From: a bacterium
GTDB taxonomy: Bacteria > Sysuimicrobiota > Sysuimicrobiia > Sysuimicrobiales > Segetimicrobiaceae
Assembly (NCBI GenBank): GCA_035295165.1
Contig: DATGJN010000035.1
Location: 1 to 64,000 of the forward strand
DNA: 64,000 nucleotides
Direction: 5' to 3'
Made by a program: the position numbers and the translations under genes. The notes under the pieces were generated by a model. The model had not been told where the DNA came from. It made no database searches and saw only the letters and a program-made list of their open reading frames with translations. Positions 5,838 to 20,332 of the stretch are shown here, one piece after another; position 1 is the stretch's first letter; every line of letters begins with the position of its first letter.

Positions 5838-7382
5838 TCAGTCGCGGATAATTGCCAGCGCGGACCGCCCGAACGGGGACGGCGAAGGCGACGCGAGGCG
5901 CGCCGGAGCCGCCGCCGTGCCCGGGTCCGCGGCGTGCCGCAGATGGTTCGCGAGTGCGGTCACGGTCGACCCGTCATATTCGCTTCCCGCGCGCTCCTGC
6001 AGCTCGGCCACCGCGGTGGCTGTCGACGACGCGCTGCGGTACGGCCTCGCCGACGTCATCGCGTCGTACGTGTCCGCCACCGCAACAATGCGGGCTTCCA
6101 GGGGGATCGCCTCGCCCTTCAAGCCGTCAGGATACCCCGAGCCGTCGAGCCGTTCGTGGTGCCAACGGATGCCGGGACGCGCGAAGGCGAGCGGCGGAAT
6201 GCGGCGGATCAAGTCGTCCCCAACGGTGGTGTGGGACGCGACGAGCGCGAACTCGCCCGGCGTCAGCTTCCCGGGTTTGTTGAGGATGACGTCGGGCACG
6301 ACGATCTTGCCCACGTCGTGCAGGAGCGCCGTTTGATGGAGCGCGCGCAGCCGCTCGGGGGACAACCCCAGTTCCTCACCGATGCGCGTCGAGAGCCGGG
6401 CCACGCGGGCAGAGTGCCCGTGCGTGTCCGCGTGCCGCGCCTCGACGATGTCCACGAAGGCCTGTAACACCTCCGCGTAACTGTGTTCGAGCTTGCCGAC
6501 GGTGTCCCCGACGAGCAGGGTGGCGAACACTTCCGAGACGCTGTTGCGTCGCGCCGCCTCCCGCAGCACGGCGAGGAGGATCACGCCGAGCCCCGCAAGG
6601 AGGAGCACATGATATTCCCACCAGCGTACGTGCCACGTCGCGGATGTGGCGAACGCGACGGCCGACACCTGCAGGATGAGCAAGCCCGTGACCATGGCAT
6701 GAGGAAACGGGAGCCCCGTCAGCCGGAAGTCGCGGTAGTACGGGACGGTTGCGGCGGCCAGTGCAGCGAACGCCAGCAGGCTTCCGCCCGCGACGATGAG
6801 CATGTTGACGCTCTCATATCCTTCCTCGGACGACGGGGCACCGCCGAGCGCGAGAAACGCAGGATAGCGGACGGCCGCTAGCGCGGCTAGGAGCGCGACC
6901 GCCATCACCACGAGGAACAGGTACGGTCCGACGCGGGTGATGGTCTGCTGCGTGGGAGGGGAGTACCGATAGCTGCTGGCCGCCAGCAACACGCTGCACA
7001 GCAGAAAGCCGAGGATCAGGGTCCATTCCGTCCCGGTCGTGGCGATCGGGAGCAGGGTCTCTGGGGTCAGCAGCGCGTGCACCACGAGGAAGACGCCCAT
7101 CGCGTGGAACGCAAGGGCGAGGATGATGATTCGGGCGTTCTCCGTTTTGGCGGCGACGCGGGCGAGGAGCGTCGCGAGGACGATCCCGACGACCCCGGCC
7201 GCGCTCACGAGAACCAGGTGCGCCCAGGAGAGCTCCCATTGGACGTCCAAGGCCGGATGCTGCGCAAGGATGCCGAGCGCGACGCTCGGGATCGACACGT
7301 AGAGAAACCACCGAACCATCTGCGTGCTCGGGAGCGGCACGGTCCGCCTACGATCGTGGCCACGCTGGGACTGCCGATGCAT
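5838..7382 (-). CDS. Membrane-anchored HD-GYP phosphodiesterase
   Basis: About 514 residues. Roughly seven hydrophobic segments fill the N-terminal half (about residues 25-272) and act as a membrane sensor or anchor. A short linker leads to an HD-GYP domain with LLHDVGKI (His355/Asp356, with the lysine intact) and [13 protein letters not shown] (GYP at 416-418). This is the canonical signature of cyclic-di-GMP (or cGAMP) phosphodiesterases. The ATG at 7382 has GGAG 8 nt upstream; the frame extends 28 low-complexity codons further. A Pro/Ser/Ala-rich tail ends the protein. It is one of three HD-GYP proteins in the window and the one with the most canonical active site. The signal sensed is unknown. 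Confidence 0.88.
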
Positions 7383-7636
7383 TTCCGGTGCTCCGCGAAG
7401 CGAAAGTCGTTCCCTTGAGAGGTGCCCATCCCGCGTGCCGCTTAGACCACCCCGGGGCGCTCGCATCGGGGGCCGAGGATCCGGAGCCGTCGAAGCAGGT
7501 GCCGTCGGTGTGCCCGCGTCGCGGCGCGTCTCAAGTCGGCCGAGGGGTACCGCCGCGACTGCAGACAGGGTGGAGGAGCCCGATGCACGAGCACGCTCGA
7601 GGCGAGGCGCCGGACGGCCGCGCGTTGAGGCGATGG

Positions 7637-17731: not shown

Positions 17732-20332
17732 TTACGGCGGGCGTGCGGCCGCCGGATCGGCGGGCACGTCGACGCGCGCGGCGACGGACGTTGGTTCAAC
17801 CGGCGCGCGGAAGACCGGCGGGGGAGGGGGGGCGGCGCCGGGCAGATCCCGCCCGGCGACGATCCAGACGATCAGCACGCCCAGGACGGAGATCACGCCG
17901 AGCAGGACGACCGAGACCTGCGGGCCCGCGACGTCCGCGAGTCGGCCGAACACCAGCATGCCGAGCAGCGTCGTGGCGGCGATGAACACCTGCCGGCTGG
18001 CCATCAGCCGTCCGACGATCCACGACGGCGCGTTCGCGAGCGAGATTGCGACGTTCGCGATGTTCGTCGCGATGTTCCCGGCGCCGAAGAGGAACGCAGC
18101 GACGAGCAGGACCGGATACGCCGTCGTGACCCCGAACAACGCGACGGCTGCGCCCGTCAGCAGGAACGTCACCATGACGAAGGGGATGTTCACCCACCGG
18201 CGACCGGTCGCCGCAAGGGTCACGGCGGAGGCCAGCTTGCCGACCCCGATAACACTGTTGATGATGCCGTAGGCGACGACCGGCAGCCCCGCGGCTTTGA
18301 TGATCATCGGGGCGCGGAGCGCCGGAAAGGCGAGCGTCAGGTACCCGGGCACGATGAGGAGCGCGAGCACCAGGTGGATGGGGGTGTTTCGGATGTACGC
18401 GAGCCCCTCGCCGATCTCGGTGACGAGATGCTTGGGTGCGTTCGTGGCGAGGCCAACCCGCCACGCGATGGGCATGAGCCCGACGCACACGGCGCTGACG
18501 ACAAAGCTCAGTGCATCGAGATAGAACACCATGTGGTAGCCAAGCGTAAGCACGATCGCGCCGCCGAGCACGCCGCCGATGATCTCCGCGACCCGCTCGG
18601 TCGTTTGCAACAGCGCCGTGCCCGTCGGCAGGACGTCCTCGGGGACGACCGCCGGGATCAGGCCGTACACGGCGGACCGGAAGAACACGGTGCCCACGTT
18701 CAACACGACGAGCACGACGAAACCCGCCGGGAGCGATCGGAGCAGCACGAAGGGGAGCACCGCCACGAGCGCCGCGCGCCCGAGGTCGGACGCGATCATG
18801 AGGCCGCGCCGGTCCATACGATCTGCGAGCGCGCCGGCGAGGAGGCCGAGCAACCCCTGCCCGACCGTCGCGGTGATGAGCGTCAGCGCCAGGACCGTGG
18901 CGGAGCCGGTGAGTTGGTACACCCACAGCGTCAGCGCGATGAAGAAGATCTCGTCACCGAGGAAGCTCACGAGCTGCCCGGTCCACAGTAGCGCGAACGC
19001 CGGCTGCCGGAACAGCGCGACCCAGGTCGGCTCGCGACGGGCGCTCGGCTCAGGTTCGCGCTCGCCGGCCGCCGGGCGCGCTCGCCGGCCCCGAGCGTAC
19101 CCCAGGGCGGCGCGAAACGCCGCGACAACCCGGGGATCAAACTGGGTGCCGGCGTGCGCCTCGAGTTCTTGGATCGCCGCGTCAGACGATCGGGCCGCCC
19201 GATACGGGCGATTCGTCGTGAGGGCGTTGTACGCGTCCACCACGAGGTTGATGCGGGAGCTCAGCGGGATCTTGTCGCCCGCGATCTTCGACGGATATCC
19301 GGTGCCGTTGAAGTTCTCGTGGCTCCCCGCCACGAGCGGGGCGATCTCCGCCAACCCGCTGATGGATTCCACGATTCGCACGCCGGCTTCGACGTGCGAC
19401 TGCATGATCCGCCACTCCTCGTTCGTCAGCTTGCCCGGTTTGAGGAGGATCTCCAGCGGGATGACCGTCTTGCCGACGTCGTGCAATAGTCCCGTGAGAT
19501 AGACGCGGTGGACCTCGGGTTCGTCGAGGTCGAGGATCCGCGCGACGCGGCGCGACAGGTCCGCGACGGCTGCGGAGTGATCGGCCGTATACGGGTCCCG
19601 CGCGTCGACGGCTGCCGCCAGGACCGAGACCGCGGCCAGCGCGCGGCGTTGCTCCTGGCCGCGCAGGATGCGCGGCAGATACAGCTGCAGCGTCAGCGTG
19701 GCGGCGAGCGGCGGCACGAGCAGGCGGTCCGCCAGCGACGGGCTGTTGCTCACGGCCCACACGGCGACTGCCGCTGCGGCCGTGAAGGCGGCCATATGGA
19801 ACGTGGTCGCCGAGATCTGGAAGCGGATCGCGCGCGGCCACGTGATGGCCTCTTCGATGTGCAAGTGCGCCGAGGACAGCACCAAGCGAACCACCGCATA
19901 GCCCGCGCCGGCGAGGAGCACGTCCGAGACGTTCGCTCCGGTCGGCGGGGCGACGTACGCGACGAGCCCGCCCGCGCTGAGCGCCAGGAGTTGGTCCCCG
20001 CCGTTGCCCAACACATCCCGGACGGGGCGGCGGAAAAAGCTGATCGCAATGCCGGCAGCGGTGCCGATCAGGGTGGGGGCCCATCCGAACAGCACAACGG
20101 TCGCAACCGTGATGACCGGAGTCAACGGAAGTTCCCCGGTCGGATCGAGGTGAATCGGGTAGTGATCCAGGAGCGCCGTCGTCAGCGCGATCACGAGCAC
20201 TGCTGGGATTTCGGGGATCGCAATGATGCGCAGCCCAGAAATCAGCAGGACCGCGGATGCAGCGGCGATGCCCCACGTCAACGCCCCGATCCGCGCTGGC
20301 GGCTGCCGCAAGGGAGTCTGGGGCGTGTTCAA
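17732..20332 (-). CDS. HD-GYP phosphodiesterase fused to an MFS transporter
   Basis: One uninterrupted 866-codon frame with two complete modules. Residues 15-220 are six or seven hydrophobic segments; 225-410 are an HD-GYP domain with LLHDVGKT (His284/Asp285, Lys288) and SHENFNGTGYP (GYP 345-347, with one His of the usual HH pair replaced by Ser). An Arg/Pro/Glu-rich linker (412-435) leads to an MFS_3/EntS-like transporter from 436 (FLGDEIFFIAL, then the loop motif ALADRMDRRG at 501-510) with about 12 membrane segments and a Pro/Ala tail. The TTG start overlaps the TGA of the upstream HD-GYP gene, implying coupling. Known: HD-GYP domains hydrolyse cyclic dinucleotides. Inferred: the transporter may be controlled by, or move, such a ligand. 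Confidence 0.85.
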   Translation of the reverse strand: MNTPQTPLRQPPARIGALTWGIAAASAVLLISGLRIIAIPEIPAVLVIALTTALLDHYPIHLDPTGELPLTPVITVATVVLFGWAPTLIGTAAGIAISFFRRPVRDVLGNGGDQLLALSAGGLVAYVAPPTGANVSDVLLAGAGYAVVRLVLSSAHLHIEEAITWPRAIRFQISATTFHMAAFTAAAAVAVWAVSNSPSLADRLLVPPLAATLTLQLYLPRILRGQEQRRALAAVSVLAAAVDARDPYTADHSAAVADLSRRVARILDLDEPEVHRVYLTGLLHDVGKTVIPLEILLKPGKLTNEEWRIMQSHVEAGVRIVESISGLAEIAPLVAGSHENFNGTGYPSKIAGDKIPLSSRINLVVDAYNALTTNRPYRAARSSDAAIQELEAHAGTQFDPRVVAAFRAALGYARGRRARPAAGEREPEPSARREPTWVALFRQPAFALLWTGQLVSFLGDEIFFIALTLWVYQLTGSATVLALTLITATVGQGLLGLLAGALADRMDRRGLMIASDLGRAALVAVLPFVLLRSLPAGFVVLVVLNVGTVFFRSAVYGLIPAVVPEDVLPTGTALLQTTERVAEIIGGVLGGAIVLTLGYHMVFYLDALSFVVSAVCVGLMPIAWRVGLATNAPKHLVTEIGEGLAYIRNTPIHLVLALLIVPGYLTLAFPALRAPMIIKAAGLPVVAYGIINSVIGVGKLASAVTLAATGRRWVNIPFVMVTFLLTGAAVALFGVTTAYPVLLVAAFLFGAGNIATNIANVAISLANAPSWIVGRLMASRQVFIAATTLLGMLVFGRLADVAGPQVSVVLLGVISVLGVLIVWIVAGRDLPGAAPPPPPVFRAPVEPTSVAARVDVPADPAAARPP

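Follow-up and report, generated by a model that had tools for sequence, protein, structure and literature searches.

The window (the whole stretch of 64,000 nucleotides that was analysed) encodes a membrane HD-GYP protein joined in frame to a complete major facilitator superfamily (MFS) transporter, and this fusion proved to be real, conserved and of single origin. We use the name HDb for the HD-GYP half of the fusion and HDa for a second, separate membrane HD-GYP protein, whose gene overlaps the start of the fusion (Table 1). An earlier sequence-only reading of this DNA described the fusion without HDa, which is part of the same unit. That the HD-GYP pair and the transporter form a unit is shown by the conserved operon of the relatives, the co-occurrence of the genes and the fusion itself. 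As a link both physical and genetic, the coupling of cyclic-dinucleotide signalling to transport proposed in that reading is well supported, and it is very probable that signal and pump act together. The most far-reaching reading, to which we give somewhat less than even confidence, is that a heterodimeric HD-GYP pair directly gates the MFS pump by binding a cyclic dinucleotide, as a three-part module which is widespread in one little-known, MAG-based bacterial phylum and became fused in one family.

Table 1. Features of the fusion locus, with positions in the window and residue numbers of the proteins.
Feature	Position	Strand	Remarks
HDb::MFS fusion gene	17732..20332	(-)	single open frame, 866 codons/aa, TTG start
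N-terminal membrane domain, residues 1-228	19649..20332	(-)	predicted to have 6-7 membrane helices; homologue of the HDa membrane domain
HD-GYP domain, residues 237-402	19127..19624	(-)	Pfam HD_5 match
Disordered linker, residues 414-432	19037..19093	(-)	evolves fast; lacks an in-frame start codon
MFS transporter half, residues about 436-830	17843..19027	(-)	12 helices; motif A GALADRMDRRG; closest solved fold MdfA
HDa (P0002), 416 aa	20329..21579	(-)	membrane HD-GYP protein, the second of the locus; its stop shares 4 bp with the start of the fusion
HDb active-site residues			H252, H284-D285, K288, H313, S337 (His276 of PmGH), H338
HDb active-site residues, continued			G345-Y346-P347, D366, N369 (Asp308 of PmGH), R375

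Pfam and AlphaFold2 agree on the composition of the 866-codon frame given in the sequence-only reading, i.e. membrane helices, HD-GYP domain, linker and complete transporter, and the ADRMDRR loop named there is present in the MFS half. HD_5 (PF13487) matched residues 237-402 of the fusion at 1.6e-37 over profile positions 2-170 of 170, and residues 439-823 were matched by MFS_1 (1.1e-20) and MFS_3 (2.1e-20). With a profile match spanning the whole domain and both the HDxGK and GYP motifs present, HDb is a member of the HD-GYP family; its matches to solved HD-GYP relatives had E-values between 3e-41 and 2e-22, and the distant Bd1817 was found at 0.0012. The AlphaFold2 model, built on an alignment of 34 relatives (mean pLDDT 84, pTM 0.56), placed a membrane bundle of 6-7 helices first, followed by a long helix leading into the HD-GYP domain, a disordered linker, the 12-helix MFS transporter and a disordered tail from residue 838. 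No contact between the domains was predicted in this model, in keeping with the disordered linker and the pTM value. Using the HD-GYP half as query, Foldseek found DvhD and PmGH; for the MFS half MdfA was the best solved fold, with a TM-score of 0.78 on target length.

The fusion is unbroken in eight genomes belonging to four genera (the window genome plus G001, G002, G004, G005, G006, G007 and G009; the contigs of L001 and L002 are identical with those of G001 and G002 and entered the count a single time), that is in 8 of the 12 members of the family. The seven other fusions, two of the same genus and the rest of three further genera, are 42-76% identical to that of the window over the whole alignment. 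In the linker stretch of the window (residues about 408-452) there is no in-frame ATG, GTG or TTG, and in the other fused members start codons occur in this stretch at scattered positions, thus there is no conserved internal start for a separate transporter. The linker is 21-50% identical among the fused members and its dN/dS, mostly 0.3-1.3, is mostly higher than that of the HD-GYP domain (0.05-0.33) or the MFS half (0.10-0.36); the HD-GYP domain of HDb is under purifying selection about as strong as that acting on the transporter. It was suggested in the sequence-only reading that the region 19020-19100 should be checked for an assembly frameshift, and that homologues always split in two, with a conserved start at the linker, would speak against a fusion. 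The seven intact relatives, rather than reads, settle the first point, and the second is contradicted by the unbroken fusions with their scattered start codons. The chance that a sequencing or assembly frameshift joined two genes is therefore negligible: eight separate assemblies hold the unbroken fusion, seven of them at the identities given above, and selection at the codon level persists on both sides of the linker, so that a split-gene artefact, which the start-less linker of the window also contradicts, can be ruled out.

Four other families of the phylum have the same three partners as separate genes, which in 11 of their genomes follow the order MFS-HDa-HDb, as derived from protein matches to all open frames (in one of these genomes, G041, the MFS gene runs off the contig start). 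One rearranged copy was seen in G026, where HDa and HDb are adjacent and the MFS gene lies about 4 kb off on the opposite strand. G018 has two copies of the operon (L044 and L045), the HDb of L045 being broken or frameshifted near the contig end. The flanks of the operon vary between families, with a BTAD-type regulator downstream in some and mraZ in G015. Among 43 genomes of the phylum 20 had both the MFS orthologue and HDa, 20 had neither and three had one only; at each site in these three (G035, G008 and G012) there is a contig end. Family f4 and one further locus of G015 were considered as carriers of the module and rejected, as they contain lone membrane HD-GYP genes (about 480-500 aa) with neither a pair nor an adjoining MFS orthologue. 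A second MFS orthologue, standing without the HD-GYP pair, was also found in G015 (L038, L039).

In a tree that took in 20 paralogous MFS proteins from the same genomes, the fused and the operon MFS proteins formed one clade (100/99) apart from the paralogues, with the fused proteins as a clade inside it (100/100). The single clade of the fused proteins shows that the fusion arose once, uniting partners that are operon neighbours in the sister families. A chance likeness to unrelated MFS proteins is ruled out by the tree and by a reverse search of five genomes with the fusion, each of which returned the fused MFS as its top match. Because the MFS gene is the first gene in the sister families and here constitutes the C-terminus of the last gene, the fusion is not a plain read-through of neighbours; as the transporter gene precedes HDa and HDb, merely losing a stop codon between adjacent genes cannot yield the order of the fusion, which again argues against an artefact. 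A plausible route, suggested by the duplicates in G018 and G015, is that a tandem copy of the operon arose and its outer parts were lost. The unfused MFS proteins are extended at the C-terminus by a part with about two additional hydrophobic segments, which is absent from the fused form.

The genomic linkage bears also on the view that the fusion is a tether only, i.e. that it fixes the stoichiometry or co-localisation of two proteins of one pathway with no direct allosteric control. The linker, disordered and fast-evolving in both length and sequence, would suit a passive tether, as would the fact that the MFS works unfused in the sister families. However, the operon was kept over differing flanks, the co-occurrence is near-perfect, and the transporter, once encoded by the first gene, became the C-terminal part of the last gene's product and yet stayed linked, which points to contact between the partners. 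We consider a mere tether unlikely.

The 4-bp overlap between HDa and the fusion is present in all eight fused loci, and an overlap is found in most unfused loci as well. The membrane domains of HDa and HDb are homologous to each other. In a comparison of structures the N-terminal membrane domain of HDa resembled membrane components of ECF transporters (CbiM 5x3x_M, 4huq_S), with a TM-score of about 0.57 on target length and weak E-values (0.2-1.1); it could serve as an input for small molecules. In the window HDa has HDVGL in place of HDxGK, GIP in place of GYP and Glu in place of D305, residue numbers here and below being those of PmGH (PMC4159591) mapped onto HDb and HDa, unless they refer to the fusion as in Table 1. 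All complete HDa proteins have H189, H221-D222, H276 and H277, and all but one have H250. Glu replaces D305 in every complete member, and K225 and R314 are missing everywhere. The GYP tyrosine is present in most unfused members and was lost in the fused family, where HDa, by its sequence, may not bind c-di-GMP.

The active site of HDb is altered in a different way. The HDVGK (284-288) and GYP (345-347) motifs, by which the domain had been described as intact, are indeed invariant in 8/8 fused members save for a change between HDVG and HDIG, but in the window Ser337 stands at the metal ligand His276 and Asn369 at Asp308. Serine occupies position 276 in all eight fused members, D308 is replaced by Asn or His and E185 by Tyr, Leu or Arg; retained are D183, H189, H221-D222, K225, H250, H277, the GYP tyrosine, D305 and R314, and the catalytic HD, K288, D246, the guanine-base-binding Arg and the GYP Tyr are invariant. 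Among the unfused HDb proteins two (G017 and G032) also have Ser at 276, whereas most have His. None of the other full-length HD-GYP domains of the genome carries Ser at this position, where they have retained His; H277 or D308 is missing from several of them. The activity of PmGH was essentially abolished by alanine at H276, K225, D183 or D308, whereas the E185A and D305A proteins retained part of it and mutants of GYP, R314 and K317 were little affected (PMC4159591). The serine could mean a loss of metal and substrate binding in the fused members. HDb does not have the complete set of metal ligands, the variable E185 aside, of an active phosphodiesterase (H189, H221, D222, H250, H276, H277, D305), and it also differs from a DvhD-like protein, where the metal site is lost including the HD pair: its HD and Lys are invariant and only one histidine of the shared ligands is gone. 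Since HD and Lys do not vary, HDb has probably retained the binding of metal and perhaps a slow hydrolysis. Both HD-GYP domains have been kept, under purifying selection as measured for HDb, and their active-site changes are complementary. The two partners have lost different parts of the standard site, as would suit a heterodimer for which binding is more important than turnover.

It is instructive to compare HDb with characterised HD-GYP proteins. PmGH (PDB 4MCW), PA4781 (4R8Z) and V-cGAP3 (5Z7C) have the domain and the fold in common with HDb, which shares with PmGH the HD pair, K225, H189, H250, H277, GYP, D305 and R314. HDb differs from the HD-GYP phosphodiesterases in the residues at His276 (Ser), E185 (Tyr, Leu or Arg) and D308 (Asn or His), and it carries a C-terminal transporter and has a constant partner, HDa, in which K225 is lost and D305 is changed to Glu. 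DvhD is a c-di-GMP receptor of the membrane whose HD-GYP domain is catalytically dead (PDB 9RBZ, PMC13090378), showing that degenerate HD-GYP proteins can be receptors; it is a structural match to the fusion model and, by analogy, the nearest precedent for a membrane HD-GYP protein in this role. Like DvhD, HDb has a membrane-anchored HD-GYP domain behind a stalk helix, an altered double-His motif and a good fold match. In DvhD, however, the HD pair itself is lost (SQ) and no metal was seen in the structure, whereas HDb kept both HD and Lys; moreover, DvhD includes PAS and dCache domains and acts on a protease, while HDb is joined to a transporter. For HDb we consider binding with weak or no hydrolysis as likely as an active enzyme. 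The idea of a transporter gated by phosphodiesterase state presumes an active enzyme, but a ligand essential in PmGH was lost in all fused members.

With 27 GGDEF and over 20 HD-GYP matches the genome (4.8 Mb) evidently uses c-di-GMP signalling, and the network is large for a genome of this size. We searched for a c-di-GMP riboswitch at the operon: the whole window gave no match to Rfam, and nine related loci gave none to a riboswitch of this type. In the mechanism that we favour the locus would encode a two-protein membrane complex of HDa and HDb::MFS, in which HDa and HDb would pair, as HD-GYP domains commonly do. The pair would bind a cyclic dinucleotide, most likely c-di-GMP in view of the 27 GGDEF matches, and binding, possibly with slow hydrolysis in HDb, would alter the stalk helices. 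This change would, via the tether, set the activity of the MFS half, a putative proton-driven exporter like MdfA, EntS or Mef, so that the pump would be switched by, and would report to, the local second-messenger pool. The direction of control, the ligand, the substrate and the pairing of HDa with HDb are what we infer in this scheme. We give an even chance to this scheme, in which the pair binds a cyclic dinucleotide, perhaps hydrolysing it slowly, and regulates an exporter like MdfA or EntS. Against it speak the serine at His276 in all fused members, the loss of the GYP tyrosine from HDa in the family and the result that the model predicts no contact between the domains.

Control could also run in the opposite direction, with flux through the MFS half or its substrate occupancy controlling the HD-GYP enzyme, and c-di-GMP being lowered during export. 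Transport proteins serve as inputs in other signalling systems. HD-GYP domains normally follow input domains (PMC8846402), the membrane domain of HDb is already a further input, and a pure receptor would not need the HD, K288 and D246 that are invariant in the fused members. Nevertheless, the transporter is C-terminal to the HD-GYP domain, which is the usual output position, the ligand whose loss abolished the activity of PmGH (PMC4159591) is missing, and the unfused MFS is a full transporter gene with a family of its own. A sensory transporter appears to us rather unlikely.

The MFS half, with 12 long helices in 444-827 and motif A (GALADRMDRRG at 500-510) between helices 2 and 3, has the MFS fold. 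The NCBIfam model TIGR00900 (H+ antiporter) covers residues 446-803 over its whole length at 176.6 bits, below the curated cut-off of 319.6 for a named exporter family; family similarity below such cut-offs suggests that it exports rather than imports. Exporters of the MdfA/EntS/Mef group (DHA, MFS_3) share with the fusion 12 helices, motif A and whole-domain matches to TIGR00900 and MFS_3, and they differ from it by the membrane HD-GYP protein at the N-terminus of the fused transporter. By description, MdrM and MdrT of Listeria are similar to the fusion in being MFS multidrug pumps linked to a cyclic dinucleotide; we know of no nucleotide-binding or hydrolysing domain in their chain. Their involvement in c-di-AMP secretion (PMC3933815) makes it chemically possible that the MFS half moves the nucleotide itself, as the sequence-only reading proposed as an alternative. 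It would then export a cyclic dinucleotide or what is made from it (pGpG, GMP), while the HD-GYP pair would deliver or trim this cargo, and the common operon and the fusion would be compatible with such a role. We regard this as very unlikely, since there is no sign of nucleotide specificity, the MFS half matches general drug/proton antiporter models, and it would be wasteful to place a pump dedicated to nucleotides next to a phosphodiesterase.

The statement of the sequence-only reading that HD-GYP has no described MFS partner agrees with our literature searches for a link between the two, which found none, and with the main text of a census of c-di-GMP domain architectures (PMC8846402), which contains neither 'MFS' nor 'major facilitator'. 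No single chain matched both halves in 742 genomes of four other phyla (E 1e-42 to 1e-48), a search in which the larger sets were scored on a few best candidates per genome and which is therefore weak evidence of absence. The architecture is thus absent from the searched literature and these 742 genomes, which is not proof of its absence elsewhere. If direct gating is true, the module, previously undescribed, would connect an MFS transporter physically and directly to a cyclic-di-GMP domain. Known outputs of cyclic-di-GMP are mostly transcription, motility, adhesins and polysaccharide synthesis, and a major-facilitator pump under the control of a domain of its own chain would represent a novel type of output (or input). 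The operon of the sister families is independent, testable evidence that the pump and the HD-GYP pair cooperate. The HDa/HDb pair is also a natural experiment in the loss or reshaping of HD-GYP catalysis, because different active-site residues were lost in each partner.

Some further observations concern the surroundings of these loci and the other HD-GYP domains. Between the fusion and a 2-oxoacid oxidoreductase-like pair, two fused relatives have a gene of the fumarylacetoacetate hydrolase family (L034:6907-7803 and L033:9935-10840), which is absent from the window. At four loci of family f6 (L041, L043, L046 and L048) the unfused MFS gene is preceded, at a distance of about 1.3-1.4 kb, by the gene for RNase P RNA. 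The window contains a further HD-GYP match at 5838-7466 (-), with the domain at 5967-6461. Finally, six or seven of the genome's HD-GYP domains (set L092-L111 of G000) have Gln in place of the metal ligand H277, and they possibly represent a further subfamily with changed metal chemistry.
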